Shown here piece after piece: positions 12,373 to 32,936 of a DNA stretch of 64,000 bases. The position numbers and the translations under genes were made by a program. The DNA is taken from assembly GCF_010093305.1 (NCBI RefSeq), contig NZ_PDWS01000002.1:124001-188000 (forward strand). The letters are read 5' to 3'. A model generated the notes under the pieces. That model was given only the letters and a program-made list of their open reading frames with translations, did no database searches and was not told the origin of the DNA. Numbering within the stretch: the first letter of the stretch is position 1; each line of letters opens with the position of its first letter. Source of the stretch: Pseudoxanthomonas sacheonensis. Lineage in GTDB: Bacteria > Pseudomonadota > Gammaproteobacteria > Xanthomonadales > Xanthomonadaceae.

Positions 12373-12386
<14 letters not shown>

Positions 12387-12780: not shown

Positions 12781-12795
12781 GTCCCGGCTCCAAGG

Positions 12796-13104: not shown

Positions 13105-13174
13105 GATCTGTCTCCAGCGACAAGTTCTGGAAGAATTCGGTTTTTCAGCTAGGTGACCCTGGCTGACAAGGCCA

Positions 13175-13205
13175 GCTTGCACTTTGGAGTTACCTCCAAG
13201 GTCAA
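13175..13205 (-). promoter_or_regulatory. CueR-type promoter of the EF-hand/cueR/copA operon
   Basis: Leftward -35 TTGACC (13205-13200) is followed by a 19-base spacer with the dyad CTTGGAGGTAACTCCAAAG and a poor -10 GCAAGC (13180-13175). ACCTTnn...AACTCCAAnGT resembles copA/CueR operators. The weak -10 would make the promoter depend on activator. It lies 71 bases upstream of the EF-hand gene start. Confidence 0.65.
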
Positions 13206-13276
13206 GCGTTTTGTCTCGGATTCAGGAAAATATTTCGCCTTCATTCATGCAGGGATGTCCTAAGGCAAGATGGGCA

Positions 13277-13786: not shown

Positions 13787-13796
13787 GGCGGCTTCC

Positions 13797-14279: not shown

Positions 14280-14295
14280 GAGACTAATGCTCCGG

Positions 14296-15171: not shown

Positions 15172-15185
15172 GGTGATCTCCCCAA

Positions 15186-18193: not shown

Positions 18194-18316
18194 GGAAACT
18201 CCATCAACGCGTCCAGAGGATCCGGTGTTAAGACCGGAACAGCCTGCGATCCCATGCGGTTCACAGCACGGTAAAACACACGCAAGCGAAGGGGCGCCGC
18301 AGGCGCCTTGGGACAC

Positions 18317-18763
18317 TTAGCCGATGGGAGGTCGGACCAGATGCGGCAACGTGGGATCCGCGTGACGGAGGGACAGCGGACGGACCACGTCCGAGTGCAG
18401 CGGGCCCACGCCAAAGGCGGCCACGGTCATGAGTGCAGCCGCAACGGCCTGCGTACAGGCGCATCGGCAGACACTGGACTTGCAGCAATCCGGGGTCGAG
18501 TGCTTGGTTTTTTGCGCCTGTTCAGCAGGCAGCGCTCCGACAGTATTCGACGAGGAGCGTTCTGCCGTCATCTGCGCCATGTCGTGGCAGGGCGAACTAC
18601 TCGACATCGCCACAGTCATCGGGTGTGATCGGGTCTGTCCCGTCGACACGCTATCCGGTGAAGCGCCAGGCATCAGTATGACGGACGCAGCTGCCGTCCC
18701 TGCCCCATTCAGGATCAGGGCAACGATCAGCATCACGCGCAACAGGGCAGACCGCAACGTCAT
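18317..18763 (-). CDS. copL: CopL-like metal-binding regulatory protein
   Basis: The 148-residue product begins with a hydrophobic signal (LLRVMLIVALILNGAGTAAAS). It carries Cys/His/Met groups: SPCHDMAQM and DCCKSSVCRCACTQ, then a hydrophobic segment (AVAAALMTVAAFGVG). In Xanthomonas, copL lies directly upstream of copA and copB and is needed for copper-induced expression of copAB. The position, size, signal sequence and Cys-rich centre match. A CueR-like box lies at 18818-18839 upstream. The molecular action of CopL is not settled. Confidence 0.8.
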   Translation of the reverse strand: MTLRSALLRVMLIVALILNGAGTAAASVILMPGASPDSVSTGQTRSHPMTVAMSSSSPCHDMAQMTAERSSSNTVGALPAEQAQKTKHSTPDCCKSSVCRCACTQAVAAALMTVAAFGVGPLHSDVVRPLSLRHADPTLPHLVRPPIG

Positions 18764-18817
18764 TCAAATACTCTACCCCAGTCTGGCAGTGCGGGCCAGT
18801 CACATCCAGACACGAGC

Positions 18818-18839
18818 AGTCTGGAGTTCACTTCCAGGT
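18818..18839 (-). promoter_or_regulatory. CueR-like operator upstream of copL
   Basis: This 22-base segment matches the box at 13181-13202 at 16 of 22 positions, including the GGAGTT core and the CAGGT/AAGGT end. Read toward copL it gives ACCTGGAAGTGAACTCCAG with dyad symmetry. It sits 55 bases before the copL start. The -35 (ATAACC) and -10 are poor, so the site is supported by similarity rather than by promoter quality. Confidence 0.45.
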
Positions 18840-18885
18840 TATCGAAGTGTTACGTCGCCGAACGGAGTTCGTTCTCGCCTTTCTC

Positions 18886-19135
18886 GTACTGGTTGATTCG
18901 AGGGCTCGCTGCTGTGGGTCAATATTGGTAGGCGAGCTGCGGCGACTCCCCCTTCGCACCTACCCGGCGAGTGAGCTGGGCTTGAATGGCGACACTCGCA
19001 GACGTGGACGTCATCGAAGTTCCTTGGCCGAAGCAGTGTTGGGAAGTACAACGCGATGCCCAGTCAATGTCGATCGAAGGTCTGCATTGACGCCTGTCCT
19101 GGACAGTGTACGAGCCGGAATGCCTGGTTGATGCG
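18886..19135 (+). pseudogene. Decayed partial copy of the 272-residue unknown gene found at 23930
   Basis: Translations align: ILVGELRRLPLR against LLTGQEYRLPIA, and after one frameshift VIEVPWPKQCWEVQRDA against VIEVPWPEARWELKPDA, then IEGLH-stop-RLSWTVYEPECLVDA against IEGLQWHLSWAVYEPERLVDA. A Trp codon has become TGA. DNA blocks such as GTCATCGAAGTnCCTTGGCC are nearly identical. Only the middle part (roughly residues 25-110 of the full gene) is present, and it ends just before the arsJ stop codon. It lies in the 382-base gap between copL and arsJ. It is inactive, and it shares orientation with the intact copy on the other side of the ars operon. Confidence 0.75.
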
Positions 19136-19145
19136 TCCGTGGACG

Positions 19146-20381
19146 TCACGAGGACTCGACGTCCACAGCCGCCAAGGGTTTGTGCCGGGGGAGCGACAGG
19201 GAAATCGCGGCGGCGAGCCCTACCAGCACTGCCGAGATCCACAGGCACGCCGCCAAGCCCGCCACCTGGAATATCCACCCGGACAGCACGGTACCCAACA
19301 ATCGGCCAAGCGCATTGGCCATGTAATAGAAGCCTACGTCGAGGGAAACGCCGTCTTCGCTGGCGTAGCTGACGATCAGGTAGCTGTGCAGCGAAGAGTT
19401 GATCGCGAACAGCACCCCGAATACCAGCAAGCCAACGACCAGGATCGTCTGTACGGACTCCTCACGCGCCAGCAGCATCGCCATCACCGCCGGCACGAGC
19501 GCCAGGATCGCCGCGCATACGAAAGCCGAGCGTCCGTCTGGCACCTTGCCGCTGCGCTTGCCGGTGAAATACGGCACCACCGACTGCACGATGCCGTAGC
19601 CGATGATCCATACGGCCAGAAAGCCACCGACCTGCCAGAAATCCCAGCCCAGCGTCTGCGCCAGGAACACCGGCAGCGCGACCACGAACCATACGTCGCG
19701 GGCACCGAACAGGAATAGCCGTGCTGCCGACAGCAAGTTGATCGCCCGGCTCTTGGAGAAGATGTCGCGGAACTTCGGCTTGTGCTTTGCCTTGCCCAGG
19801 TCGCGCTTGAGCAACGCCAGGCTCAACAGCCATACGATCAGCAGCACGCCGGCCATCAGCGCCACCGCCGGCGCAAACCCCATCGTGGTCAGCATGGCGC
19901 CGCCGAGGAAGAAGCCGATGCCCTTGAGCGCGTTCTTCGAGCCGGTCAGCGCCGCCACCCAGCGGAACAGGGCCCCCTGCTGATCGCCCGGCACCAGCAG
20001 CTTGATGCTGCTCTTGGCGCTCATCTTGTTGAGGTCCTTGGCGATGCCCGACAGCGCCTGCGCCGACATCACCCAGGGCACGGTCAGCCATGCGCCGGGC
20101 ACCAGCAACATCGACAGGGCCACGACCTGCAGGGCCAAGCCGATGTTCATCGTCCGGTTGAGGCCGATCCGCGCGCCCAGCCAGCCGCCGACCAGATTGG
20201 TGACGACGCCGAAGATCTCGTAGAACAGGAACAGCAGCGCTACCTGCAACGGCGAGTAGCCCAACTGGTGGAAGTGCAGCACCACCAGCATGCGCAATGC
20301 ACCGTCGGTCAAAGTGAAGGCCCAGTAGTTGCCCGTGATCAACAGGTACTGGCGAACATCGGGCGACAGGCGGGACAACAT
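19146..20381 (-). CDS. arsJ: ArsJ-type MFS transporter for 1-arseno-3-phosphoglycerate
   Basis: The 411-residue major facilitator protein has about 12 predicted membrane segments and the motif GGWLGARIGLNR between helices 2 and 3. Its neighbour is a GAPDH gene four bases upstream in an arsenic operon, the defining context for ArsJ. In this pathway GAPDH makes 1-arseno-3-phosphoglycerate from arsenate and ArsJ exports it, after which it hydrolyses, giving arsenate resistance. The length and start (MLSRLSPDVRQYLLI) suit the family. It is the last gene of the ars operon. Confidence 0.88.
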   Translation of the reverse strand: MLSRLSPDVRQYLLITGNYWAFTLTDGALRMLVVLHFHQLGYSPLQVALLFLFYEIFGVVTNLVGGWLGARIGLNRTMNIGLALQVVALSMLLVPGAWLTVPWVMSAQALSGIAKDLNKMSAKSSIKLLVPGDQQGALFRWVAALTGSKNALKGIGFFLGGAMLTTMGFAPAVALMAGVLLIVWLLSLALLKRDLGKAKHKPKFRDIFSKSRAINLLSAARLFLFGARDVWFVVALPVFLAQTLGWDFWQVGGFLAVWIIGYGIVQSVVPYFTGKRSGKVPDGRSAFVCAAILALVPAVMAMLLAREESVQTILVVGLLVFGVLFAINSSLHSYLIVSYASEDGVSLDVGFYYMANALGRLLGTVLSGWIFQVAGLAACLWISAVLVGLAAAISLSLPRHKPLAAVDVESS

Positions 20382-20385
20382 GGAC

Positions 20386-21390
20386 TTACCCTGCCTGACC
20401 CACCAACTGGACCAACTCGGCGGTACGGTTCACGTAGCCCCATTCGTTGTCGTACCAAGCGTAGATCTTCACCTGGGTGCCATTGATCACCATCGTCGAC
20501 AACGCGTCGACGATGCTGGAGCGCGGGTCGGTCTGGAAATCGATTGATACCAACGGCTGGGTTTCGTAACCCAGGATGCCGTTGAGCTCGCCCTCGGCGG
20601 CGGCCTGCAAAAACGCGTTGACTTCCTCGACCGTGGTCGGCCGCTCGACCTCGAACACGCAGTCCGTCAGCGAGGCATTGGTCAGCGGCACGCGCACGGC
20701 ATGACCGTTCAACCGCCCCTTCAGTTCGGGGAATATCTCGGCGATCGCGGTGGCCGAGCCGGTCGAAGTCGGGATCAGGCTGCTGCCACAGGCCCGAGCG
20801 CGGCGCAGGTCCTTGTGGGGCGCATCGACGATGACCTGAGTGTTGGTCAGGCTGTGGATCGTGGTCAGGCTGCCATGGCGGATGCCCAGCTTTTCGTGGA
20901 TCACCTTGACCACCGGCGCGAGGCAATTGGTCGTGCACGAGGCAGCCGAGACGATGCGGTGCTGGGCCGGATCGAAGCGCTGCTGGTTCACGCCCATGAC
21001 GATGTCGAGCGCGCCGGCCGACTTGACCGGTGCAGTGACGACCACACGCTTCACGCCCTGGTCGAGGTAGGGCCGCAGCACGTCGGGTTTGCGGAACTTG
21101 CCCGAGGCCTCGATGACCACATCGCAGCCGGACCAATCGGTGGCGGCGATGTCCTTGTTGCGGGCCACCGGGATACGGACGCCATCGATCACGAGGGCAT
21201 CGCCATCGGCGATCGCCTCGTGCTGCCAGCGGCCATGGATCGAATCGAAGTTCAGCAGGTGCGCCAGGGTGGCCGCGTCACCGGCCGGGTCGTTGATCTG
21301 AACGAAGGAAAGCGCGGGATTGCCCCAGGCGGCGCGCAGGGTCAGGCGCCCCATGCGACCAAAGCCGTTGATGCCGATGCGTAGAGTCAT
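20386..21390 (-). CDS. gapdh: Arsenate-resistance glyceraldehyde-3-phosphate dehydrogenase
   Basis: The 334-residue NAD-dependent dehydrogenase has the Rossmann start [13 protein letters not shown], the catalytic cysteine in [12 protein letters not shown], the catalytic His region and the C-terminal [11 protein letters not shown]. Full family length. Situated between arsC and arsJ, it most likely uses arsenate with glyceraldehyde 3-phosphate to form 1-arseno-3-phosphoglycerate for ArsJ to expel, rather than serving glycolysis. It is 33 bases downstream of arsC and 4 bases upstream of arsJ. A housekeeping role cannot be excluded from sequence alone. Confidence 0.9.
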
Positions 21391-21423
21391 GGTGGCGTGC
21401 AGTCGAAAGGAAGACGAAAGGTA

Positions 21424-21921
21424 TCAGGTGGACGCCGTGCCGATCTCGCGGACGCGGGTCTCCAGCACCAGGCGATCGAGGGCTTCGACCTTCAGCGCCA
21501 TCAGCAACGCGATCCGGTGCTGCAACAGATGAAGTGCATTGGTGAAGGCGCGGCGCACCTGGTCCTCGGTGCCGGTGACTTCGGCCGGATCCGGGACGCC
21601 CCAATGCGCGGTGATCGGCTGGCCGGGCCACACCGGGCACGTCTCGCTGGCGGCACGATCGCATACGGTGATGACGATATCCATCTGCGGCGCATCCGGT
21701 TCGGCAAACTCGTCCCAGGCCTTGCTACGCAGGCTGTCGGTCGACAATCCGACGTCCTGCAATACCTTCAAGGTCATCGGATGGATCTGGCCGCGCGGCT
21801 GGCTGCCGGCGCTGTAGGCATTGAATCGTGTCTTGCCCAGTTGGTTGGCCAAGGCTTCGCCCATGATGCTGCGGGCGGAATTGCCGGTGCACAGGAACAG
21901 GAGGTTGTAGCGACGGCTCAT
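21424..21921 (-). CDS. arsC: Arsenate reductase, low-molecular-weight phosphatase family
   Basis: The 165-residue enzyme reduces arsenate to arsenite. It has the phosphatase-type P-loop LFLCTGNSARS (residues 8-18, catalytic Cys) and the DPAEVTGTED acid loop of the thioredoxin/glutaredoxin-coupled LMW-PTP ArsC class. It lies between acr3 (24-base gap) and gapdh (33-base gap). Together the operon handles arsenate both by reduction plus Acr3 efflux and by the GAPDH/ArsJ route. The start matches the family N-terminus. Confidence 0.9.
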   Translation of the reverse strand: MSRRYNLLFLCTGNSARSIMGEALANQLGKTRFNAYSAGSQPRGQIHPMTLKVLQDVGLSTDSLRSKAWDEFAEPDAPQMDIVITVCDRAASETCPVWPGQPITAHWGVPDPAEVTGTEDQVRRAFTNALHLLQHRIALLMALKVEALDRLVLETRVREIGTAST

Positions 21922-21945
21922 GACAGGGTCTCGGGGTTGGGCAAA

Positions 21946-23013
21946 TCAGGGGCGCGCTTCGTACCACGCCTTGGAGGCGGTCACGATGCGTACGACGGAC
22001 AACATGACGGGAACCTCGACCAGCACGCCGACGACGGTCGCCAGCGCCGCGCCGGAGTGGACGCCGAAGACGCTGACGGCGGTGGCCACGGCCAGTTCGA
22101 AGAAATTGCTGGCGCCGATCAATGCGGAAGGTCCGGCCACGCAATGGGCAACACCGAACTTGCGGTTGAGCCAGTAGGCCACCCCGGCGTTGAGATACAC
22201 CTGGATCAGGATCGGCACGGCCAGCATGGCGATGATCAGCGGTTGTGCGACGATCTGCCGACCCTGGAAGCCGAACAACAGAACCAGCGTGACCAGCAAG
22301 GCGCCAAGCGAGACCGGCCCCAGTCGCTTCAGCAGGGCTTGCAGCGCCGCCTCGCCACCTCGCTGCAGGATCCAGCGACGCAGGACCGCGGCGATCAGCA
22401 CGGGCACGATGATGTAGAGCTCCACCGACAGCAGCAGCGTCGACCATGGCACGGTGATCGACGAAATGCCCAGCAGCAAGCCCACAACCGGGGCGAAGGC
22501 GAACACCATGATCGCGTCGTTGAGCGCGACCTGGCTGAGGGTGAATTGCGGCTCGCCCTCGCACAGATTGCTCCAGACGAACACCATGGCCGTGCATGGC
22601 GCCGCGGCCAGCAGGATCAGCCCGGCGATATATGAATCCAACTGATCCGCCGGCAGATAACGGGCAAAGACGTGGCGGACGAAGAGCCAGCCCAGCAGCG
22701 CCATCGAGAACGGCTTGACCGCCCAGTTGACGAATACGGTGACGCCGATGCCTTTCCAGTGCTGCTTGACCTGTCCCATCGCGCCGAAGTCGATCTTCAG
22801 CAGCATCGGGATGATCATCAACCAGATCAGTACCGCGACCGGCAGGTTGACCTTGGCGATCTCCATCGCGCCCAGCGCGGCAAAGCCGTCGGGAAACAGG
22901 TAGCCCAGTCCGGTGCCGACGACGATGCACAAGGCCACCCACAAGGTCAGGTGGCGCTCGAAACCGCCCATGCGCCGGGAAAGCGGTACCGGTGAAGCGA
23001 TCGTCTCGTTCAT
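21946..23013 (-). CDS. acr3: Acr3-family arsenite efflux permease
   Basis: The 355-residue membrane protein has about ten helices and the Acr3 signatures AAPCTAMVFVWS (Cys in helix 4) and the ALNDAIMVFAFAP segment. It exports arsenite using the membrane potential. The ATG at 23013 overlaps the arsR stop by four bases (ATGA) and gives the family N-terminus (ETIASPVPLSRRMGGFERHLTLW); the longer upstream frame runs through arsR and is not used. Followed by arsC after 24 bases. Confidence 0.92.
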   Translation of the reverse strand: MNETIASPVPLSRRMGGFERHLTLWVALCIVVGTGLGYLFPDGFAALGAMEIAKVNLPVAVLIWLMIIPMLLKIDFGAMGQVKQHWKGIGVTVFVNWAVKPFSMALLGWLFVRHVFARYLPADQLDSYIAGLILLAAAPCTAMVFVWSNLCEGEPQFTLSQVALNDAIMVFAFAPVVGLLLGISSITVPWSTLLLSVELYIIVPVLIAAVLRRWILQRGGEAALQALLKRLGPVSLGALLVTLVLLFGFQGRQIVAQPLIIAMLAVPILIQVYLNAGVAYWLNRKFGVAHCVAGPSALIGASNFFELAVATAVSVFGVHSGAALATVVGVLVEVPVMLSVVRIVTASKAWYEARP

Positions 23014-23354
23014 GCCGCGTCCTTCCTCCGGCGCGTGGGCTCGCACACCTGGCTTGGCAGGCAGTTCGTGGCACCGCCACAGCAGTTGCGGGTCAGGAAG
23101 GCGATCAAATTGGTCATGGCCTCGAAGTTGGCGCGATAGCGCTTGAAGCGACCGCGCGCCTCGCACTCGATCAAACCGGCACCACTGAGCTCCTTCAGGT
23201 GGAAGGTCAGCGTGGCGCCGGGCAGCGACAGGGTCTCGGCGATCTCGCCGGCCAACCGGCCTTGGGGACCTGCCTCGACCAGCAGGCGGAAGACCGATAG
23301 CCGGGTGGTCTGGCCCAAGGCGGCGAGCGAGAGGGTTGCGTCTTTGATTTCCAT
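23010..23354 (-). CDS. arsR: ArsR-family arsenite-responsive repressor
   Basis: The 114-residue winged-helix repressor has the recognition segment LPGATLTFHLKELSGAGLI (about residues 45-63). The metal site appears to be C-terminal, NCCGGATNC (about 89-97), rather than the ELCVCDL site in the HTH of E. coli ArsR, so it belongs to the C-terminal-cysteine class. It heads the ars operon and overlaps acr3. Its likely operator lies in the promoter just upstream (23361-23389). Release by arsenite would switch on the whole five-gene operon. Confidence 0.88.
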   Translation of the reverse strand: MEIKDATLSLAALGQTTRLSVFRLLVEAGPQGRLAGEIAETLSLPGATLTFHLKELSGAGLIECEARGRFKRYRANFEAMTNLIAFLTRNCCGGATNCLPSQVCEPTRRRKDAA

Positions 23355-23360
23355 TTTTCT

Positions 23361-23389
23361 AAAATAATCGAATATACGAAGCGTAGCAA
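23361..23389 (-). promoter_or_regulatory. Promoter of the ars operon with AT-rich operator-like spacer
   Basis: Leftward there is a -35 TTGCTA (23389-23384), a 17-base spacer and a -10 TATTTT (23366-23361), ending 7 bases before the arsR ATG. The spacer contains TTCG-TATA-TTCGA, an imperfect dyad, as expected for an ArsR site. The short distance to the ATG implies a nearly leaderless arsR message. Confidence 0.45.
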
Positions 23390-23395
23390 CCCGCG

Positions 23396-23560
23396 ATGAC
23401 AGGAAAACGACAGCCTGGCTGGCACTGGCCTCACCTTCTCCTGCTGGCCGGCTTGCCGCTGGTGGCGATGGTCGCCATCCGCCTGCATTTGCCCACCACC
23501 GCAGTACTGTTCGGCTGGGTGCCTAGCTATTCCGCGGCACTGCGTGATCTCTTCGCTTTT
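23396..23560 (+). pseudogene. 5' stub of a membrane protein gene, divergent from arsR
   Basis: An ATG frame encodes WHWPHLLLLAGLPLVAMVAI and further hydrophobic sequence (about 50 residues) in the style of a permease N-terminus. It then runs into the antisense of the XRE gene, where the composition changes. The stub is divergent from arsR and may be the beginning of an arsenic-linked permease cut away by the junction with the XRE module. The family could not be identified from so short a piece. Confidence 0.4.
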
Positions 23561-23889
23561 GGCGCCTTGTTAGCTTCGACCAGCTTGACCAGCTCTTTCT
23601 TCTTGCGCAGGGACAGGCCGTTCCACTGCAGCAGAAGTTCAGCGAGCAGGTCGTCCTCGGTATAGAGAAAGGCCGGCGGGATGCCCAGCACCTCGGCTAG
23701 CCGCTTAGCCCGTTTGAGCTGGGGTTCGTGCTTGCCGCGCTCGTATTGATTGATTGTGGGAGAGGCCACGGCAGGATCCAAGCCGGCAAGCACACCGAGT
23801 TGCGTCTGCGACAGGCCTGAGCGCTCACGCGCCTGGGCCAGTCGTAGCGCAAAAACCGGGTATTTTGCCGTTCGAGTCGTCACTACCAC
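23527..23889 (-). CDS. XRE-family (Cro/CI-type HTH) transcriptional regulator
   Basis: The 120-residue protein has a Cro/CI HTH domain in residues about 13-70: RLAQARERSGLSQTQLGVLAGLDPA, then TINQYERGKHEPQ and AEVLGIPPAFLY. A Lys/Arg-rich tail follows. It is divergent from the 272-residue unknown gene at 23930, with 40 bases between them. These contain the near-palindrome CCTAAGGAAGCCTTAAGG (about 23891-23908), a possible operator. Such small regulators often control transfer or recombination genes of islands. No partner toxin motif was seen in the neighbour. Confidence 0.8.
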   Translation of the reverse strand: MVVTTRTAKYPVFALRLAQARERSGLSQTQLGVLAGLDPAVASPTINQYERGKHEPQLKRAKRLAEVLGIPPAFLYTEDDLLAELLLQWNGLSLRKKKELVKLVEANKAPKAKRSRSAAE

Positions 23890-23929: not shown

Positions 23930-24748
23930 TTGGATACTAAGTTATTCTTAGAGCCCCAACAACCACCTCTGCCCTACATGGCGTCGCCCGCCCCCGCCAC
24001 CGTCGATGAACTCGGGCTAAGAGGATGCCTGTACCTATGGGCGCTATTGACTGGGCAGGAATACCGCCTACCGATCGCGCAGACCAAGCGGATGACCCTG
24101 GTAGCTATGGGGTACTTACAGGAGCGCGGCGTCATCGAAGTGCCTTGGCCAGAGGCACGCTGGGAACTAAAGCCCGATGCCCGGATCACGCCGATCGAAG
24201 GCTTGCAGTGGCATCTGTCCTGGGCCGTGTATGAGCCGGAGCGGTTGGTCGATGCGCTGGATGACTACTTCAACTCCCTGGAACGCGACGACTTTACGAC
24301 GGCAGAACGATTGCGGCTTTGGACCGAACTGGGATCCGCCGAGGCCGAACGTTTCTTCGAGCAGCAACTGCTGAAGCATCGGTTCTCCGGTGAGTGGGCA
24401 CAGGACATCGCGTTCGCCTATCGGGAAAGCGGAGTAGTACTAACGGTAGCCCAGTGGCGCTACTGTGCCTGGGCGGCAGTACGGCGTGGCGCTTCCATGG
24501 CCATGCAGCACGGACCCCAGGTGGATGGCCTGCGCGACACGATCTATCAGGAAATACGCCGACGTGCGACTTCAGTAGCGAGCGGCACGTGGGATGGCTG
24601 TTCGTTTCCGCCCTTTAACCCGCAACCTGAAAGCGCATTGGGTCGCGGCTTCGTTCATAGGCTGACGCGCTTGGGACAACTCTATTGGACAGGGTGGCCA
24701 AGTACAGAGGTGTTGATTGGCCACGGTCTCGAACATTGTCGTGTTTAA
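23930..24748 (+). CDS. Unknown 272-residue protein, paralogue of a decayed copy beside arsJ
   Basis: No known domain was recognised. The sequence is acidic and Trp-rich with family-like blocks RLPIAQTKRMTLVAMGYLQERG (winged-helix-like), IEVPWPEARWEL, LSWAVYEPERLVDALDDYF and VAQWRYCAWAAVRRGASMA. There is no signal peptide or membrane segment. The possible start codons are TTG 23930 and ATG 23978; the second gives ASPAPATVDELGLRGCLYL, which is the part shared with the decayed copy. It is divergent from an XRE regulator and convergent with the RecJ-like gene. The presence of two copies flanking the ars operon marks it as an island gene. The function is unknown. Confidence 0.6.
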   Translation: MDTKLFLEPQQPPLPYMASPAPATVDELGLRGCLYLWALLTGQEYRLPIAQTKRMTLVAMGYLQERGVIEVPWPEARWELKPDARITPIEGLQWHLSWAVYEPERLVDALDDYFNSLERDDFTTAERLRLWTELGSAEAERFFEQQLLKHRFSGEWAQDIAFAYRESGVVLTVAQWRYCAWAAVRRGASMAMQHGPQVDGLRDTIYQEIRRRATSVASGTWDGCSFPPFNPQPESALGRGFVHRLTRLGQLYWTGWPSTEVLIGHGLEHCRV

Positions 24749-24821: not shown

Positions 24822-26588
24822 TCAACGCAAATCGATCCCCCGAATTATCAGCTGCAGCCGGGTGTTGCCGCGGTAACTTTGCGCATCCAGACAATAAGCA
24901 AACGTCACGCTGACTCCAACACTGACAGGAGGGTTCCCCTCTTTGTTGGCTCCAAACCAGACCGCATCGATGTCAGTTGCGCTGTTTGAGAGCCGTAACT
25001 TCAAGTGGGTTCCGTCGCCAATCAGGCGCATATCGTTCACGCGCCAAGTACCCATGAATATTGGCTGCTCGAATTCTCGGCCATAGGGCTCCAACGCCGA
25101 CAACTCGCGTACATGATCTAAACCAGGTGCTTCGAGCAACCCGTCAACTAGCAGATACGGTGATGGCAGTTCTTCGCCATAGGCTTCTTTGACACACGTA
25201 TCCCATGCATCAACCAAGGTGGGAATATCGCTTCGCTTCACCTTGAGCCCGCCCGCACCACGATGCCCGCCAGCGCTCAACAATAGGCCTGGCCAGCGTT
25301 GTTTAATTAATGTCAGCGCTTGCAGGACGTTAACGTGCGGCGTTGTTCGTATTGATCCGGTGGCAATGCTCTCGTCACTCGCAAGCGGCGATAGGCATAT
25401 CGTTGGCAATCCGAACTGCTCCACCATTCGAGTGGCGGTAATACCGTGAACCCCTGCATGCGACCGTTCCCCCAGCCATAGACAGAGTCCGAGTCGCCCA
25501 TCGCGGATACCGGCTTTAGCCAAAGGTTCTGCAATACTGCGCAGTGTCGCTTCAATGTCCTTTCGCTCGCGATTGTTGGAATCAAGTTCCTGGAGGATGC
25601 GGAATGCCTCCTCCTCGCTGGTGGCACACAGAAACTCCACCCCCAGCATGGCATCGGTTAGCCGGCCTCTAGCATTTATGCGTGTCGCGATCTGAAATGC
25701 AATATCGGCAGCTGTCCAGTCCCCTTCCTTCTTTAGCAAGCGGCGCATAGCTTGCCAACAAGGTCGCGGCTTCGAATTCATCAAACGGAGCCCGCGCTGC
25801 ACGATCATTCGATTGTTTAGCGAGTACGCAAGAGACGACGCGTCCGCAATGGTCCCAACCGCGCAATAATCTAGAAGATCAGAGACACGTGGCGATTCCG
25901 GGGTTAAAGACCCACGCTCAATTAACAGCTCGCGAGTAGCCGCCATGACCAGCAATGCGGTATGGCAACCGGCTATCGCCTTATCTGGAAATTTGCTATC
26001 GCGCCGCACCGGGTTCACCACGGCATGAGCTGATTGCGGCGGCCCTTCTTCGGGAATGCCGTGATGATCCGTCACCACGACGGAATGGCCAGCAGCGACC
26101 AACCGGGAGATTCGCATCTCATCGGTACTCCCCTGATCCGCCGTAATAATGCACGTGCTTGGCGGAAGCTGAGGGAGCATGCGATCGACTAGCGCATCGC
26201 TGAGGCCGTACCCCTCGATCATCTTATGCGAGAGAAAACTATAGATTCGGCCAACCGGATACCCCATCGCCACTAGAGCGTTTTTGAGAATCGCGTGGGA
26301 AGTGGCGCCATCAGCATCGTGATCAGTAACCAGAGCAATTGGTGTGTGCGCAGAGATTGCGTCGGCAAGGTGCCCGGAGGCCTTATCAATGTCGGGCAAT
26401 GCGTGCGGCCCATCGATCTCGTTAGGCGATGGGATAATTAGGGAGCGAAGCTGCGAGAAGGAAACCCCATGTAATCGACCTGATATCACCCGCGCCTGCA
26501 ACGGCGTATAGCCGAGACTAATGGCCTGCTCCTCCACAGGCTTATCGCGCGATCGATCCTTAAGCATCATGTTTGTGCTGTCTGTCAT
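24822..26588 (-). CDS. recJ: Island-encoded RecJ-like DHH/DHHA1 single-strand DNA exonuclease
   Basis: The 588-residue protein has the whole RecJ core: motif I DHDADGATS (Asp89, 91, 93), motif II Asp151 in ITADQGSTD, motif III TDHHGIP (174-176), motif IV CAVGTIADAS (Asp249), then RINARGRL and the DHHA1 motif SAGGHRGAGGL with a C-terminal OB-like region. RecJ degrades single-stranded DNA 5' to 3' in recombination and mismatch repair. All visible metal ligands are kept. It is not a copy of the host gene: the host fragment reads DFDCDG, VDHGIA and VTDHHLPGE at these sites. It overlaps the small upstream gene by four bases and is the last gene of the recombinase operon. It probably substitutes for the disrupted host recJ or serves transposition. 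Confidence 0.85.
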   Translation of the reverse strand: MTDSTNMMLKDRSRDKPVEEQAISLGYTPLQARVISGRLHGVSFSQLRSLIIPSPNEIDGPHALPDIDKASGHLADAISAHTPIALVTDHDADGATSHAILKNALVAMGYPVGRIYSFLSHKMIEGYGLSDALVDRMLPQLPPSTCIITADQGSTDEMRISRLVAAGHSVVVTDHHGIPEEGPPQSAHAVVNPVRRDSKFPDKAIAGCHTALLVMAATRELLIERGSLTPESPRVSDLLDYCAVGTIADASSLAYSLNNRMIVQRGLRLMNSKPRPCWQAMRRLLKKEGDWTAADIAFQIATRINARGRLTDAMLGVEFLCATSEEEAFRILQELDSNNRERKDIEATLRSIAEPLAKAGIRDGRLGLCLWLGERSHAGVHGITATRMVEQFGLPTICLSPLASDESIATGSIRTTPHVNVLQALTLIKQRWPGLLLSAGGHRGAGGLKVKRSDIPTLVDAWDTCVKEAYGEELPSPYLLVDGLLEAPGLDHVRELSALEPYGREFEQPIFMGTWRVNDMRLIGDGTHLKLRLSNSATDIDAVWFGANKEGNPPVSVGVSVTFAYCLDAQSYRGNTRLQLIIRGIDLR

Positions 26589-27091
26589 CGCCCAGGCTTT
26601 CCTGCAGAAGGCTTGATTGGGAAGACATTGCTGCCTGCCTTCCGACTCTTGACTGCAGAAATGTCACCCCCACAGAACAGGCAAGCTGAAGCCTCCTTGC
26701 ATTCCTCTGCCAGAAGCGGGGTCAGCAAAGGCGTTATATCCGCGGAGCTGTGGTGAAACCGCCTATATATTTCGACATGATGCTGTCGAAGCGCTTGAAC
26801 TTGACGTTGAGCCACAGCTAGTTCTTCTTGCAGCCGTTCGTTTTGAGCGCGGAACAGCGCAATCAATGCTTCGCCTGAAGTAGATCGGCGCCCTGCCTTC
26901 AACGATTTCAGCGTTTCCGCTACAACATGATCATAACGCCTTAGAGTCGTTCTCGATGCGGGCACACGTGCCGAAACCTCGCTCGCATTGAATACGTAGC
27001 CCTTCCCGAGCTTCGCCGCCTCATCCGCCAACTCATGAATTACCGTGCGAATGCGACCAGACAATTCTTCACCGCGAAGTTGTTTTCTCAT
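26585..27091 (-). CDS. Small helical partner protein of the recombinases (TnpC/GmtX-like in position)
   Basis: The 168-residue protein has an N-terminal region resembling a small HTH (SEVSARVPASRTTLRRYDHV, about 40-59). A coiled coil follows (IALFRAQNERLQEELAVAQRQVQALRQHH, about 85-115), then a CLFCGGD cysteine pair and a basic tail. It overlaps genes on both sides by four bases (ATGA), so its dosage is tied to the recombinases. Tn554-type transposons and Gamma-Mobile-Trio islands also have a small non-catalytic protein beside their recombinases. Relationship to either is suggested by gene order only. Confidence 0.55.
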   Translation of the reverse strand: MRKQLRGEELSGRIRTVIHELADEAAKLGKGYVFNASEVSARVPASRTTLRRYDHVVAETLKSLKAGRRSTSGEALIALFRAQNERLQEELAVAQRQVQALRQHHVEIYRRFHHSSADITPLLTPLLAEECKEASACLFCGGDISAVKSRKAGSNVFPIKPSAGKPGR

Positions 27092-29229
27092 TTCGCTACA
27101 ACCTCGACTCCGAGCCCCATCTGCTCCAGCTTGAGGGTCGTATTACTGAAAATACGCAGGTAATGACTGAACATGGGAGACTCCGAAGGAATAACTTTCA
27201 GCGCCACCTGCGCCTCGCTACGAAGGCGTCTGATCTCAGCGACATGCCCAGAATTGTTGCGATCTACGATCAGATGCTCGCAAGCGCCACTATTCTCCTC
27301 ACTATCTCCACCGCAGGTGAAACAGCTGAGATAGTGTGGGCACGGGTTCATTGCCCAATTTAGGGTACACAGACCGTGCGGCATGATGTTTATCATTCGC
27401 AGTGCACCCGCCAGATATTCCTCCGCTTGCTCTCTAGAGATATCCGCCAGACGCGAATATGTGTCGCTGATCTCGCCGACGATCACTCCGTCTCGCACGG
27501 CATTCCTTAAGCGTTCTGCTCGCTCTTCGCTCGACGTTTGGTCATATGTGGCATTCTGACCGACGTCCTTGCGACCAAAGATCAGAGCAATCTGCTGCTG
27601 ACTAAGACCGCCTCGCTGATACTGTGTGTTGAGCCAGTGCCGCACGTCATGCCAAGTAAACTTGGCGATCTCGCCTGTCCTTGGATCTACAATCCCGAAT
27701 CTCTGAAAAACACTAATCTTTGTTTTTCCATCATTTCGACTTAGCCACCGCGCCAAGTCGGTGACGGTGACCGCTAGAAAATCGCTAGTGCGAGAATTTC
27801 CACCCCGGCCGCGCCTGCGGAGCAGCAACGCCTCGTGAGCTTCCAGGTATGACTCTCCCCCTGGGCCTCTAATGAGGGCAAATGATCGTTTGAATTGGGC
27901 CTCCAGGCCTTCATCTCTAACCGGATTCGGATAAAACTCTCCTCGCAACTGCATTTCTCTGGCGTCTTGAATGATCGCTCGGACAGACGGATACAGCTTG
28001 TGTGTTGTGGTTCGCGCGCGCAGCTTGAATTGATTCTCGTTAATGAGTCGAGGATCGAAATTCCAACTGCGTATTTCCTTCCCCTTGCAGGTCATGGTGC
28101 GGAGCTCACCTGCGCGGGCGGCACGCTGCTCGGCCAGCATCCTTTCCAGGCTCATGTACGTCACGCCCAGTCTGCGACCTGCTTCAGACTTATTACCACC
28201 GCACTCCTCTAACGTGCCGATCGCATCGATCAGCTTCTTCTTGAACTTGTGCCAAACCGCATCGGGATTAATGAGCCGATTGGCTGGATCTGCGGTCCAT
28301 TCGTGCGCGAATTTTGATGTGAAGTAGCATGCAGCCGCCTCATTGGAAGACACCTTAAGCCAATCGACTGGCTCATTCTCACGCTGTTGCGCGGCAAGCT
28401 TTCGCAAATCCTCGGTGGAAGATTTCAATGCGGAAACAGCGGCACGGATTGCCGGCACTAGACTGGGAGGCACCACCTTTGGAACGGGACGCCCTTTCTT
28501 CTCGGGGAAGTACAGCAATTGCAAGGCGCCATCGTGCTCGATGAGACAATTTTCCGGCAAATTCGCCAACTCGCCCACACGAAATCCGGCCCCGACATCG
28601 ATAGTGAAAATCTGCAGATAGAAGCGATCGATGTCACTTATATCGTCTCTTGAATTGACAGCAATCAGGTCGCGTATGACCTCGTCTGGCATTAACTTTT
28701 CATGGCGACCTGCATCATTGCCCTTGCGCCCGTGCTTAGCTGGCTTCTTCATGCCGGAGACGTAGCTCAGTCTCGATCGCGTCCGCAAATTCAGCCACTT
28801 CGCGAACGTCGCGAGCACCTTGCATAGTCCGTATGCGCCCGCAGCTGCGCGATTCTTTCTGATCCGCCGTTCTGCAGCGTAGAAATCTTCGTTCTTGAGC
28901 GTGTCGAATGACCGTGCCCCGAGAACTTCCCCTAAAATTGCCACGACCGTTAAGCGGGCCTGAGCCGAACCTTCTCCAAGATTTCGTGTCATCCGTCCAT
29001 GGAGAATCCAAATCTTGCATGCCGCCTTCAAGTTGGCATGAACGATCTTGTCAAAGTAGAGGTATCTGCTGATGCCATTGCCAGGACGTAACACCCATGA
29101 AATTACATTCCATTGATCCGATTCGAATGACGCTCCAGGCGGAATCAAGGCGAGCAAATGCGACCCCAACTCCGAAATTGAGGAATCCGCCGTGTGCTCA
29201 TGCAGCCAACGAGAAAGTGCGGCCGACAT
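27088..29229 (-). CDS. Large tyrosine recombinase with internal HTH and C-terminal Cys-rich region
   Basis: The 713-residue protein has a tyrosine recombinase core split by a long insertion: first Arg in GAGFRVGELANL (about 217), then HDVRHW (His527, Arg530), GRKD, and the nucleophile Tyr in QNATYDQ (about 562). Between Arg and the HxxR motif lies a Fis-like helix-turn-helix (about 336-365, GNKSEAGRRLGVTYMSLER). The C-terminus has HYLSCFTCGG and a further Cys, a likely zinc site. The ATG at 29229 follows the upstream stop by one base with GAGGGG as ribosome site; an ATG at 29247 is the alternative. It is the third recombinase of the operon and overlaps the small partner gene by four bases. 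Confidence 0.8.
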   Translation of the reverse strand: MSAALSRWLHEHTADSSISELGSHLLALIPPGASFESDQWNVISWVLRPGNGISRYLYFDKIVHANLKAACKIWILHGRMTRNLGEGSAQARLTVVAILGEVLGARSFDTLKNEDFYAAERRIRKNRAAAGAYGLCKVLATFAKWLNLRTRSRLSYVSGMKKPAKHGRKGNDAGRHEKLMPDEVIRDLIAVNSRDDISDIDRFYLQIFTIDVGAGFRVGELANLPENCLIEHDGALQLLYFPEKKGRPVPKVVPPSLVPAIRAAVSALKSSTEDLRKLAAQQRENEPVDWLKVSSNEAAACYFTSKFAHEWTADPANRLINPDAVWHKFKKKLIDAIGTLEECGGNKSEAGRRLGVTYMSLERMLAEQRAARAGELRTMTCKGKEIRSWNFDPRLINENQFKLRARTTTHKLYPSVRAIIQDAREMQLRGEFYPNPVRDEGLEAQFKRSFALIRGPGGESYLEAHEALLLRRRGRGGNSRTSDFLAVTVTDLARWLSRNDGKTKISVFQRFGIVDPRTGEIAKFTWHDVRHWLNTQYQRGGLSQQQIALIFGRKDVGQNATYDQTSSEERAERLRNAVRDGVIVGEISDTYSRLADISREQAEEYLAGALRMINIMPHGLCTLNWAMNPCPHYLSCFTCGGDSEENSGACEHLIVDRNNSGHVAEIRRLRSEAQVALKVIPSESPMFSHYLRIFSNTTLKLEQMGLGVEVVAK

Positions 29230-29230
29230 C

Positions 29231-30811
29231 CTAATGCCCCTCTTCAATAGCCGTGATCACGTCTTTGATCCCGGCGTATACCTGTTCAAAATCCTTGCCC
29301 AATTTGCTGCGCTCTTTTCCAGCCTCGGCATGGCTCCATCGTTCATGTTCGCGCTGGACATACTTCATTGAAGCGCTGTGATCGCCATCCCGCCACGCTT
29401 GAAAATGTGGGCATCCTCCGTAGCACGCCCAAAACGGATGAGTTGGGCACGCCCCGCTGCTGCCACATGAGCCAACGACAGCGGGGGCGCCCGAGTGAAA
29501 ATCGGAAACGAGAATTTGCTTCTCTCCTAACGCAGGTACAACCACGCCTTGAAAGAAGGCCGCATTAAGACCGGCGAATAGCCCGCCTAGTGCACGGTCT
29601 GCTCGCTCGATGGCAGGCAGCAACTCCGAAGCCACCGCATCAATGTAGGCCTGAGCCGATGTAGGATCATCGTGCTCGAAGATTGTCTGGATTTCGTCTC
29701 GAGGAGTACCCTGCATGGCAAGACGCGTTCCGCCGGTATGACGAACGCGCTTCGCTCCAAAAACAAGTACCTTTCCAGTCCTTGGACTGACGATATTGCT
29801 TTCAATACTCCATCGACGCAGCAATCTGGTCATGGTGCCCGTAGGTACCTGCCCATGCTCATGCCACTCCATCGGAAGTTCTAGACCGTATTGATCGCGC
29901 GAACCGATAGTGGTTGCATTTCGATTGTTGCCGCCTTGTTTTCTGCCTGGCACGACAATCAATCGGTCGAATTTTTCCTGTAGAGCCAAGAGTAATGGGC
30001 GGTCGCCCAATGCCTGTATCGATTTCCCCAGCGCCTCGCTTACAGGCCACAACTCGGCAACATCGCCCGTTTGCGCCTTTACCTTCGGAATTCTTAAAAA
30101 GTATTGCCAGCGTTGCCCCTTATAGGTGACCAAGGCATCTTTGCGCATACCAAGTAGTTGCAGTGGACGCTTATAGGTCTCAAAGAGAATCCAGCCAAAA
30201 ACCCGGATAATGCATTCAACATCAGATTCATCACCTACGGGCATGGCCAATGCGCGTCGGGCCAGTTCCGACTCCCCCGACGTGTATGCCCCAGTCTCTG
30301 CATTCCAGGTCAGTACGTCCTGCATGCCCGCCGGTTGTGGCCACGCGACCCATTCGTCCATTTCCAGTGCGATAGCTGGGCTCGCTCCCGCCATTGATCG
30401 CTGAGCCATCTCCCTATAGAAGATTCGGAGCATTGTTCGAGCTTCTTTTGAAAGCAGCACCCACATTGCTGCCCATTCCTTGATGGACAGAGCGCCAAGC
30501 CCACCTGAAAGCTCTATCCCCAGACTGTTTGCCGCCATAACAAGGCCATGCAACATCCGATGCACGTGCTGCGCCCACGACGCGGATTTGGTTCGCAATT
30601 GCTCCAATGCAATAACTTGCAAAGGCTCAACAACAGCATTTGACAGTCCGCCCTGTCGCCAATCCAACCTCCTCGCTGAACCACCCAGGCTGAACCGCCA
30701 GACATCATCCGTTACGTCGATAAACACTGGGGCGTCTGGATTGAATTCATTGCGGACGAATTTGCGTCCGTCCGAACCTTCCCACAGGCCAGTTTCATGG
30801 TTCTGCATCAT
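29231..30811 (-). CDS. Tyrosine recombinase, second of three in the operon
   Basis: The 526-residue protein has the recombinase catalytic pattern: Arg in ETYKRPLQLLGM (about 215), KRVRHTGGTRLA (Lys354 in place of His, Arg357), EHDDPTSAQAYID (His380, nucleophile Tyr389). The C-terminus holds GSCGSSGACPTHPFWACYGGCPHF, a Cys/His-rich likely zinc region. The ATG at 30811 overlaps the stop of the first recombinase by four bases. Two-domain layout with a large N-terminal region is typical of transposon recombinases such as Tn554 TnpB rather than phage integrases. Activity is likely but depends on the Lys at the His position being tolerated, as in some family members. Confidence 0.8.
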   Translation of the reverse strand: MMQNHETGLWEGSDGRKFVRNEFNPDAPVFIDVTDDVWRFSLGGSARRLDWRQGGLSNAVVEPLQVIALEQLRTKSASWAQHVHRMLHGLVMAANSLGIELSGGLGALSIKEWAAMWVLLSKEARTMLRIFYREMAQRSMAGASPAIALEMDEWVAWPQPAGMQDVLTWNAETGAYTSGESELARRALAMPVGDESDVECIIRVFGWILFETYKRPLQLLGMRKDALVTYKGQRWQYFLRIPKVKAQTGDVAELWPVSEALGKSIQALGDRPLLLALQEKFDRLIVVPGRKQGGNNRNATTIGSRDQYGLELPMEWHEHGQVPTGTMTRLLRRWSIESNIVSPRTGKVLVFGAKRVRHTGGTRLAMQGTPRDEIQTIFEHDDPTSAQAYIDAVASELLPAIERADRALGGLFAGLNAAFFQGVVVPALGEKQILVSDFHSGAPAVVGSCGSSGACPTHPFWACYGGCPHFQAWRDGDHSASMKYVQREHERWSHAEAGKERSKLGKDFEQVYAGIKDVITAIEEGH

Positions 30812-32040
30812 TGCAATGCCGTCCATGACCAGTTCTCATTTTCGGATCGCATCACTCCCTTCGCTCGGTCGGCTCGAGCACGTCTTGAATAGATCTCAAG
30901 GCTCTTTTCGCTCTCCCAGCCACCCCAGTACACAAGATCCTGCAGTTCCTGATTGGTCTTGGCGCGCAGGTACATCCGATTGAAGAAGGCGTGTCGTGCC
31001 AGATGCCAGTGGAAGTTGATGCCAGTTGCCGCCTTGATCGCGGACGCCACATCATTCGCAGTGCTGATAGAAAGCGGCTTACCGTTCGTTGCTACGATCA
31101 GGAATGGATGGGGAAGGACCCACCGATATACCTGGCGGCCATGCTCCTTGACCGAGGCGCGACGAAAGCGAGTCGTGTATTGGGCAATTAGATGCGGAAA
31201 CCTGGTCTCCTTCCATAGAAAGCGAAGGTCGCGACTTAGGGTTTTTGGCCTTGGGGCATGCGCTCCTCTCGAGTCAATCACTCCGTCGTCACGCTCTTCG
31301 ATCCTGACGACACTAATGTAGTTGCGACCCAACGCCGGACAGTCCTGGAGCCTCAGGCTTAGCACCTCACCAAGTCGCAAGCCGAACTCAATCGTCAATC
31401 TCCAAAGTAGATAGTCCCGCCATGCAATATCTTGGCCGACGTTCCTACTTCTATTTTCAGGTAATAGAAATTCTTCGATCCGCGCCAGTTCTTCGTCCGT
31501 CAGATCTGGCGCTACTCTCTTCTTCCGCGTCTTGATCCGTGTCCTTGTCCACTCGCGACCTTGCGAGTTGGCAAGAAGTTCGATTTGCATAACGCGTTCT
31601 GCGACTGCTGAATTCGATGTCGCATACTGAGTTATGAAATGCACACAGATTTGTCGGCAGAAGTGCAGGGTCTGGTTGTGTGTGGTTCTCGATTCAGGCG
31701 TGAGCCTTGCTTTCCCGTCCTCACCTAGCCGTACCCGCAACCAGGCCGAGAAAGCGGAGATCTGCGACGGCGCCAAGCCTTCACCACTCAGGAGTTGTGC
31801 ATCCAAGTCAACGCCGCGCTCGTCAGCCCATGAGTACAAGCTTGCGATCCCGTATAGCGATCCTGACCTTGTCTTCTGCGAGTCGCTCTTCTGAGCGAGA
31901 TGCGTTTCATAGATGGACGACGCGATCGGCAGTCGACCGGATTCGCGATGCATCAAGACGTACCGGCTGGTTGCGTCCTGATCCAGGAACGGAATCACCC
32001 TATACGCCAAGCTAACTCGGTCAGGCCTCAAAGTGAACAC
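30808..32040 (-). CDS. Tyrosine recombinase, first gene of the recombination operon
   Basis: The 410-residue protein has a complete catalytic set: Arg222 in FGLRLGEVLSL, HWHLARH (His346, Arg349), YWGGWESEKSLEIY (nucleophile Tyr384). An N-terminal SAM-like DNA-binding domain precedes it. The start is a GTG at 32040. Upstream lie two perfect palindromes and a plausible promoter, then the junction with recJ about 190 bases away. It is followed by two more recombinases, a small partner and a RecJ-like gene with overlaps at every junction. It is the best candidate for the enzyme that cuts the recJ target. Confidence 0.85.
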   Translation of the reverse strand: MFTLRPDRVSLAYRVIPFLDQDATSRYVLMHRESGRLPIASSIYETHLAQKSDSQKTRSGSLYGIASLYSWADERGVDLDAQLLSGEGLAPSQISAFSAWLRVRLGEDGKARLTPESRTTHNQTLHFCRQICVHFITQYATSNSAVAERVMQIELLANSQGREWTRTRIKTRKKRVAPDLTDEELARIEEFLLPENRSRNVGQDIAWRDYLLWRLTIEFGLRLGEVLSLRLQDCPALGRNYISVVRIEERDDGVIDSRGAHAPRPKTLSRDLRFLWKETRFPHLIAQYTTRFRRASVKEHGRQVYRWVLPHPFLIVATNGKPLSISTANDVASAIKAATGINFHWHLARHAFFNRMYLRAKTNQELQDLVYWGGWESEKSLEIYSRRARADRAKGVMRSENENWSWTALQ

Positions 32041-32237
32041 CTATGAAGTTTATATCATTGATATAAATAGACTTATCTATAAGTCCAATACATGCCGCGC
32101 CTAAGACGTTAACGAAAGTTGCGTAGAAGGGCAACCAGTCAATATCCCTCTCAGGATTTAGGGGGGCAAAGACCGATCTAGGGCAGGTCTAGGAGCTTTG
32201 ACCCTAGAAGAAAGTGTCCAGATCCGCCCCCACCTAA
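32041..32237. promoter_or_regulatory. Right end of the island: palindromes, recombinase promoter and terminal sequence
   Basis: Two perfect inverted repeats lie next to the first recombinase: 32049-32067 (TTTATATCA-T-TGATATAAA) and 32070-32085 (GACTTAT-CT-ATAAGTC). A leftward promoter fits across them: -35 TTGGAC (about 32088-32083), 17-base spacer, -10 TATATC (32065-32060). Closer to recJ, GGGCAAAG (about 32163) and CTTTGACCC (about 32196) form another inverted pair around TCTAGGGCAGGTCTAGG. These are candidate recombinase-binding and operator sites; the exact terminal base of the element lies at about 32232-32238. Confidence 0.5.
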
Positions 32238-32936
32238 GTCTGCGATGGTGCCCACGGCCACCAGATCGAGCAGTGTGGAAAGATCGGGCTCGCCGTGCGC
32301 TAGGTCACCTTGCTCACGCAATTTCTTCCGTAGCGCCAATAGCACGTAGAACATCACCCCCATGCCGGCCAGCATCTTGCTGGGGAAGGCGTCGCCTCGC
32401 AGATTGGGATTGACGATGGCGTCGGCCGGCGGCAACGACTCGCCGGGAAGATGGTGATCGGTGACCAGCACTTTCCAGCCCAAGACCTTGGCTGCCGCAA
32501 TGCCCGCATGGCAGGCGATGCCGTGGTCGACGGTCACCAGCAGATCGGGCTGCAGCCCGGCGAGTTCGCCTACCAGCGCCGGCGACAGGCCATAGCCGTG
32601 CAACATGCGGTTGGGCACCGCCGGGGTCACCCGCGTTGCGCCGAGCATGCGCAATCCACGCACGCCGACGGCGCAGGCCGTGGCGCCGTCGCAGTCGAAG
32701 TCGCCGACCACGACGATATGACTGTTCGCCGCTATCGCATCTGCGAGCAAGGCGGTGGCTTCCGCCAGCCCGCCGAGGGTTTCGGGCGGCAGCAGTTGCG
32801 CCAATTTAGGCTGCGCCTGTTCCAGGCTGGTCGCGCCGCGTCCAGCGTAGATGCGGCGCAGCAGCGGTGAAAAGTTGTCCGGCCAGCTTCCCGCCGCGTC
32901 GATCTGGCGCCGACGGATCCTTGGGGTTTGAGCCAC
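32178..32936 (-). pseudogene. recJ: Host recJ, 5' part, interrupted by the island
   Basis: The first 233 codons encode genuine RecJ: motif I VVVGDFDCDGATA, motif II TVDHGIA, motif III VTDHHLPGE and motif IV LVAVGTIAD. Then the sequence changes abruptly to 19 foreign residues (LGGGGSGHFLLGS...) and a stop at 32178. Normal RecJ has about 570 residues, so the DHHA1 and OB domains are lost and the protein should be inactive. The start is a GTG at 32936 overlapping the end of the upstream gene. The break lies exactly after the motif IV aspartate, the point where the island begins. The rest of recJ should lie at the far left end of the island. Confidence 0.88.

Follow-up and report, generated by a model that had tools for sequence, protein, structure and literature searches.

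A genomic island that splits recJ at a catalytic motif and carries a complete, diverged RecJ homologue

Introduction

How can a mobile element use the middle of a core repair gene as its insertion site? Integrative elements usually limit the harm done to their targets, either by using the ends of genes or by rebuilding them. The locus described here, from Pseudoxanthomonas sacheonensis (genome G000; 44 contigs, 100% complete), raises the question directly. The window, by which we mean the whole 64,000-nucleotide stretch analysed (C22:124001-188000), contains the 5' half of host recJ, cut within its coding sequence by a genomic island whose recombinase operon ends in a complete gene for a RecJ-family protein. 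The island is a GInt, with a ginABCD operon of three tyrosine recombinases and a small protein. The pairing of recJ destruction with a carried replacement is well supported by genome comparison, and it goes beyond chance, recurring in three more GInts and in one unrelated element. From these sequences we infer that the carried gene replaces host RecJ function.

The host recJ gene is split by a 50.4-kb island

A TIGR00644 profile search of the whole G000 genome, in which all five candidates were scored, gave matches at exactly three places: two parts of recJ and the RecJ gene of the island. The same search was used to look for an intact canonical recJ elsewhere in the genome, an observation that the preliminary description of this DNA, made from the sequence alone, had named as speaking against its proposal, and none was found. 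The 5' half of recJ matches at C22:156235-156867 (TIGR00644 positions 3-214), and the 3' half lies at C22:104794-105810 on the minus strand (positions 211-544), approximately 18.2 kb left of the window start and at the opposite end of a 50,436-bp island, which extends left of the window to C22:105808. That the missing half would be found at the far left island end had been anticipated. The break falls between motifs IV and V. As previously described, the match to recJ is lost after native codon 233, the motif IV aspartate, whose GAC codon stands at window position 32238; 19 island-encoded residues and a stop follow. The 5' half is 96.1% identical at the amino acid level to the recJ product of G413, which is uninterrupted and, at 96-97% amino acid identity, the nearest of the intact recJ genes compared. 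The features at the junctions are, in window positions unless a contig is given:

32238..32936, minus strand: host recJ 5' half, 233 native codons with motifs I-IV, TIGR00644 3-214, ending at the attachment (att) core
32238..32243, minus strand: att core at the right junction, GCAGAC, encoding Ala-Asp of motif IV
C22:105802-105807, outside the window: other copy of the att core, GCGGAT
32200..32237, minus strand: right terminus of the island, TTAGG...TCTGGACACTTT, matching the left terminus (C22:105808 onward) in inverted orientation

At the right junction the GAC codon of motif IV is followed by TTAGGTGGGGGC; at the left junction the island terminates with ...GCGCCCTA and recJ picks up at GCGGATCTGGTCCCG. 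Both island ends are inverted matches around TCTGGACACTTT. The flanking direct repeats, GCAGACTTAG and GCGGATCTGG, are identical at 6/10 positions around a GCNGAY core and are weak as a repeat alone. The six-base core is common to all four GInt insertions in recJ, with the pairs GCCGAC/GCCGAT in P. kalamensis, GCCGAC/GCAGAT in P. sangjuensis and GCCGAT/GCGGAT in G015, a metagenome-assembled genome (MAG). The leftmost 325 nt of the island have 52.9% GC as compared to 64% in the host, which is lower yet not AT-rich. A consensus for the uninterrupted site (attB) was built from 30 bases around it in 30 of the genus's 34 intact recJ genes; these 30 genes differ from it at 0-6 positions, and it contains the dyad GGCAC...GTGCC. 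An assembly artefact is unlikely, as a single 400-kb contig contains both junctions and other genomes show the pattern too.

A gin operon ends in a complete RecJ gene

Five genes with overlapping starts and stops run inward from the recJ 5' half on the recJ strand, encoding proteins of 410, 531, 719, 168 and 588 aa:

30808..32040, minus strand: ginA, tyrosine recombinase, 410 aa; Pfam Phage_integrase 2.2e-9, HLARH and SLEIY motifs
29231..30826, minus strand: ginB, tyrosine recombinase, 531 aa; NF041502 6e-34 and Phage_integrase 3.7e-5, both under curated cut-offs
27088..29247, minus strand: ginC, large recombinase-like protein, 719 aa; HDVRHWL and ATYDQ motifs, homologues in 15 other elements
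26585..27091, minus strand: ginD, small protein of 168 aa, matched by tblastn behind ginC in 13/15 relatives
24822..26588, minus strand: element-borne RecJ, 588 aa; TIGR00644, RecJ_OB and DHH, start overlapping the ginD stop by 4 nt

The operon is thus as first described, ending in a 588-aa RecJ-like gene on the recJ strand. Of the three tyrosine recombinases proposed at that stage, the 410- and 531-aa proteins match Phage_integrase (the latter below cut-off), while the 719-aa protein matches no recombinase family. We term it recombinase-like because of its position, its HDVRHWL/Y motifs and its relatives, which follow those of ginA and ginB in 15 other elements. In the two of these 15 without a ginD match (L025, L035), an unmatched open reading frame (ORF) or coding sequence of approximately 144-194 aa occupies the ginD place. 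P. kalamensis, P. sangjuensis and G015 have the same 4-base overlap between the RecJ start and the ginD stop; G015 has it despite an identity to G000 of only 57% in GinC and RecJ. No near-identical plasmid copy of the operon was found, and two peptide patterns found no GinC relative in IMG/VR.

The island RecJ matches TIGR00644 positions 19-544 (C22:148840-150453) and has the RecJ domains in order. It had been credited with all DHH and DHHA1 motifs. The DHH and OB domains score over their cut-offs, while DHHA1 reaches 24.9 bits, under the curated 25.9. The catalytic residues are in place: D89, D91, D93, D151, D174, H175, H176, D249, R309, S412, R414 and H442 are invariant in an alignment of 39 RecJ sequences. 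Among the metal and nucleotide-phosphate ligands defined from Deinococcus radiodurans RecJ in the account given in PMC4846377, the exception is the counterpart of Arg109, which is Lys in the island protein. An AlphaFold2 (AF2) model built from 36 sequences has a predicted local distance difference test (pLDDT) score of 93.5; a model from three sequences (pLDDT 60.7) was set aside. The top Foldseek hit for the model is Staphylococcus aureus RecJ (3.4e-45), and the five best matches are all solved RecJs, with 586-588 aligned columns. With a nonsynonymous to synonymous rate ratio (dN/dS) of 0.099 against P. sangjuensis, as compared to 0.066-0.078 for ginB-D, the gene is under purifying selection as judged from its codons.

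Two other origins of the gene were considered. Capture from a recent host was rejected, since the protein falls outside the canonical RecJs in trees. For a phage gene, there is no IMG/VR relative by two peptide patterns, and matches in phage records are at most 32.8% identical among the matches listed (15 of 54).

Among the GInts found, only those inserted in recJ carry RecJ

We searched 397 genomes of the order for ginC (E 1e-10) and found matches in 12, five of them full-length. Two peptide patterns located at least 13 ginC loci in a collection of 84,980 species, and a single full-length ginC was present among the 82 plasmid records with a match. In total there are 16 distinct full-length rows, to which site assignment was confined, seven weak partial matches being left aside. 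Four are in recJ and carry RecJ: G000, P. kalamensis (G309, locus L026), P. sangjuensis (L027/G397, equated with G401 of the genus search since the places agree) and MAG G015. No other complete RecJ or intact canonical recJ was found in these four genomes. The other 12 are at other sites, 10 beside a ribonucleotide reductase gene, one beside a BI-1-type gene and one on a plasmid. The preliminary description had called for a search for the five-gene operon elsewhere and for RecJ-bearing relatives at unrelated sites: the operons found sit in recJ in 4/4 cases, and no RecJ match was found in the covered sequence of the sister GInts, of which 11/12 can be judged (11/11 without RecJ). The contig of the twelfth, L031, ends approximately 0.1 kb behind ginD; for L029, L036 and L037, which reach approximately 0.6-1.5 kb behind ginD, the result is that RecJ is not directly next. 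Host recJ is intact, with a single match, in each of two sister-GInt genomes (G231, G245).

The four recJ-type rows group as a single clade (100/100) in the ginC tree, next to nrdJ-type rows whose order is poorly resolved; the recJ site and RecJ were thus gained once in GInts. The pairing nevertheless moves: the G000 and P. kalamensis islands show 2 differences in 12,633 bases, whereas the adjacent chromosomes are 80.5-82.5% identical, so the two insertions are not one inherited event. Cargo behind RecJ varies, with an arsenic/metal cluster in G000 and another gene in G015.

To gauge how common such target/cargo pairs are, every kept ORF of at least 90 aa was compared with every other (E 1e-12) at 25 loci of both element types, two of them from weak partial ginC matches. 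Three of the 25 were positive (L026, L028, L149), each pair consisting of a recJ 5' part and the element RecJ, and no other homologous pair was found in 22/22 control loci over stretches of 10.7-22.8 kb, which stop short of distant cargo. The window, L027 (whose stretch has no recJ part) and L022 (the place of L034) stood outside this test.

Host recJ status agrees with this distribution. Among 38 genomes of the genus, 34 have recJ over the cut-off, three have it split, and one (2.0 Mb, 94% complete) has no match; the three with split recJ are exactly the element carriers. Across the order's 397 genomes TIGR00644 is over the cut-off in 369, weaker in 14 and without a match in 14, in a scan that scored at most three candidates per genome and picked the weaker 14 by E-value. 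G000, G309, G015 and G388, all from the weaker class, have both recJ parts and a complete RecJ. Six further genomes of this class were inspected (G292, G113, G092, G204, G014, G024), leaving G052, G117, G168 and G178.

An unrelated element carries a RecJ of the same lineage

In G388, of another genus, approximately 22.4 kb of DNA interrupts recJ behind the ...VGPR of motif V (profile position 266):

C1:1789518-1790309: recJ 5' part
C1:1796535-1798190: complete RecJ
C1:1812730-1813566: recJ 3' part
L149 (G388:C1:1786500-1804500), 4029-11721: module of four genes plus RecJ

Adjoining the 5' part, all on the recJ strand, are genes for proteins of 429, 634, 722 and 173 aa, followed by a 594-aa RecJ. 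The 429-aa protein matches Phage_integrase; the other three have no Pfam or NCBIfam match. BLASTP of the four proteins against GinA-D found no meaningful similarity (best E 0.026), and a profile comparison of the large protein with GinC gave a probability of 3.9%. By sequence, then, this recombinase module is unrelated to that of GInts. Its RecJ, however, is 63% identical to that of the G000 island. Three GInt rows and G388 form a RecJ clade (100/100) in which the G388 protein is nested (100/96), and grouping the GInt RecJs without it is disfavoured (approximately unbiased (AU) test, p 0.015), for a group fixed before the tree but after pairwise identities already pointed there. Relatives of the 722-aa protein occur in eight other genomes of the order, seven of which have a single recJ match, over the cut-off (G391 rechecked); the eighth is G015, where the relative is on a contig other than that of its GInt. 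At L179 (G015:C15) the relative of the G388 module adjoins a restriction-modification-like gene, named from its translation. A second, unrelated element makes the idea of paired destruction and replacement testable rather than anecdotal.

Proposed mechanism

The best explanation, and in our judgement a probable one, is that an element lineage destroys recJ and supplies a substitute that is proof against its own targeting. The GInt recombinases insert at a conserved six-base recJ site, the codons for Ala-Asp of motif IV, and insertion splits recJ. The RecJ gene follows ginD immediately, in the orientation of the broken recJ and, in GInts, with start/stop coupling; its product would then most likely take over host RecJ function, with transcription from a recJ-side promoter, an element promoter or both. 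PMC5385486 describes a GInt, studied experimentally, whose transcription starts both outside and inside the element, an arrangement that would also serve the carried RecJ gene. A sigma-70-like promoter scan of 24.6-33.0 kb gave 0 sites as compared to 5.2 expected by shuffling, a result that is uninformative for this host. The carried RecJ is predicted to be produced, to be active as an exonuclease and to resist repeat attack. Its DNA differs from the attB consensus at 14 (G000), 12 (P. sangjuensis) and 10 (G015) of 30 bases, and it should be hard to attack again because the right arm of the att site is gone. The pairing spreads as a unit, as the near-identical island in two hosts with recJ neighbourhoods approximately 80% identical shows, and RecJs of one lineage accompany two recombinase modules that are unrelated to each other and strike recJ at different codons. 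The earlier suggestion that the element compensates its host therefore stands as to the pairing of destruction and replacement (4/4 GInts, 11/11 sisters without RecJ, a second element), while its functional half is a prediction.

We put forward more tentatively a general form of this strategy, in which a dedicated RecJ lineage serves as a swap-in module among unrelated elements, each of which has come to cut recJ within its most conserved DNA, that of catalytic motifs, with the site lost from the carried copy by recoding, transcription kept and the element itself hard to lose.

If paired destruction and replacement is correct, it would explain how an element can exploit an internal, near-universal site. 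Targeting would be aimed at catalytic-motif codons that recJ must keep, with the cost paid by a complete though diverged substitute. It would also open a way for xenologues to take the place of core repair genes, and would yield a recombinase directed at a conserved motif of recJ.

Relatives of the element RecJ and alternative explanations

The phylum sample searched with RecJ comprised 398 genomes, and the family f12 sample 233. The element lineage (at least 57% identity) was present only in G000 and G388, the next matches being 39-42% and 42-45% identical. The tree places the island RecJ outside the 31 canonical RecJs, in a clade shared with those of Lysobacterales plasmids, G470 and family f21. 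In f21, apparently Halomonadaceae, the sister-lineage RecJ is the sole complete TIGR00644 match in 8/8 genomes of the phylum sample, with all candidates scored; one of them, G795, has an extra fragment-sized match (49.5 bits). With neighbours named from their translations, thrC adjoins the f21 gene or is one gene away in 4/5 loci viewed, and at the fifth, where antisense ORFs cover that interval, xerD and dsbC are seen. We take this thrC/dsbC-type locus as a housekeeping recJ place.

Several observations weigh against replacement of host function. RecJ activity and complementation are predictions from sequence. The island protein scores 332.9 bits with TIGR00644, below the equivalog cut-off of 396.9, and we therefore call it RecJ-family and not a canonical RecJ equivalog; the f21 proteins (382.7-395.1 bits, 8/8) are likewise under it. 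Single origin in GInts means that the 4/4 pairing does not represent four independent gains. The broken recJ halves show no visible decay, so the length of host reliance on the substitute cannot be read from them. G388 has a further, plasmid-type RecJ elsewhere. In G292 (L133, L140) recJ breaks off where contigs end, with inverted termini and duplication of a short target, and is apparently interrupted by an insertion sequence (IS); a substitute RecJ was not found in that genome, and recJ loss can therefore apparently be tolerated. Lastly, large plasmids of Lysobacterales that also have PRTRC or RdgC genes (L110, L111, L112) encode RecJs of the same broad clade, and in G265, G003 and G312 a related RecJ is on a separate contig beside intact recJ. 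Because clade members are plasmid backbone genes or stand beside intact recJ, an element-serving ancestry of the RecJ clade is likely.

This ancestry is what favours the strongest alternative, that RecJ serves the element in DNA processing during excision, copying or establishment, and that the link to recJ is a by-product of acquisition. GInts of Marinobacter, SAR92 and Tritonibacter encode a RecD-like helicase a short way past ginD, which shows that this region can house DNA-processing enzymes. Use of RecJ in the element's own movement, also raised in the preliminary description, is made less likely by experiments in PMC5385486, where a minimal GInt consisting of ginABCD and the element ends is reported both to integrate and to excise. 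Nor does service to the element explain why RecJ is found only with recJ-inserted elements, in two unrelated modules. Overall we think it unlikely.

A neutral passenger, picked up once by chance in a recJ-type GInt ancestor and moved once to the second module without selection for replacement, would agree with the one origin in the GInt tree and the apparent tolerance of recJ loss in G292, but purifying selection, an operon position conserved across 57% identity and the recurrence of the pairing with a second, unrelated recombinase module at another recJ site make it very improbable. Least probable of all is that the gene is a maintenance device by which the element, as sole source of RecJ, makes its own deletion costly: G000, P. 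kalamensis, P. sangjuensis and G015 each yielded no complete RecJ besides that of the element, but clean excision would restore recJ.

Other genes of the islands and the window

Beyond RecJ the island contains:

23930..24748, plus strand: conserved island gene, 272 aa, no Pfam/NCBIfam match; also adjoins RecJ in P. kalamensis and P. sangjuensis
23527..23889, minus strand: XRE-type regulator, 120 aa, HTH_3; in the G000, P. kalamensis and P. sangjuensis islands
1..23400, no strand assigned: cargo, with an arsenic gene cluster at approximately 19.1-23.4 kb, multicopper oxidase, two metal P-type ATPases and FTR1 iron permease

The regulator is known in P. kalamensis from DNA alignment of that stretch only, and the ars gene names were read from translations. 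SseB-type genes occur in the GInt island (L004:6625-7383), in the G388 element (L149:13599-14342) and, by sequence likeness only, near a related module in G275 (L177:4858-5610). Five nrdJ- or BI-1-type GInts (L030, L032, L033, L035, L038) have the RecD-like helicase behind ginD as a conserved partner, and in the four of them inspected a small protein of approximately 145-177 aa lies between the two. Window positions 54791-59700 comprise a tmRNA gene and, behind it, DNA of 49-57% GC that includes a serine-resolvase-type gene (57373-58113); this is probably a further island.

Comparison with known systems

Some integrative elements, in tRNA genes, prfC and other targets, offset the damage of insertion by reconstituting the end of the interrupted gene. 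Such elements restore a fragment from host-like sequence, whereas here a whole diverged gene is supplied. Among the titles and abstract openings listed from the open-licence literature, we did not find recJ as an integration target or the replacement of a target gene.

The island RecJ resembles the RecJs of S. aureus (8y30), D. radiodurans (5f54/5f55) and Thermus thermophilus (2zxo) in domains, metal ligands and fold. It differs from them as a separate lineage below the TIGR00644 cut-off, with His in motif I in place of the stacking Tyr80 of D. radiodurans RecJ, and with ADQG as motif II.

The elements termed SEs also combine tyrosine recombinases with a small protein, a 6-bp footprint and target specificity (PMC10214605). 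That paper describes them as distinct in sequence from GInts, and they are set apart here by its description; 'recj' does not occur in its main text.

The closest likeness is to GInts as presented by Bardaji et al. 2017 (PMC5385486). In that account a GInt is flanked by imperfect direct repeats of 10-17 nt and has a ginABCD operon at one end, with cargo behind ginD and a short, AT-rich other end. It excises as a circle after 6-nt staggered cuts, and all four gin genes are needed for recombination in P. stutzeri DSM 4166. The island shares the operon and its position, short imperfect direct repeats, a strict site and metal-resistance cargo, and some published members are at the end of a ribonucleotide reductase gene, as are sister GInts here. 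The main text of that paper does not contain the terms recJ, DHH or exonuclease. It considers harm avoidance at GInt targets and proposes that insertion probably leaves them not completely inactivated, a generalisation that does not extend to this locus, where recJ is split. Here the target is cut in mid-coding sequence at a catalytic motif, and the fifth operon gene is a full homologue of the target, in both respects different from GInts as published there. The island therefore belongs to a known kind of element; what is new is that a core repair gene is interrupted while a diverged, complete substitute is carried, and that an unrelated element presents a parallel.

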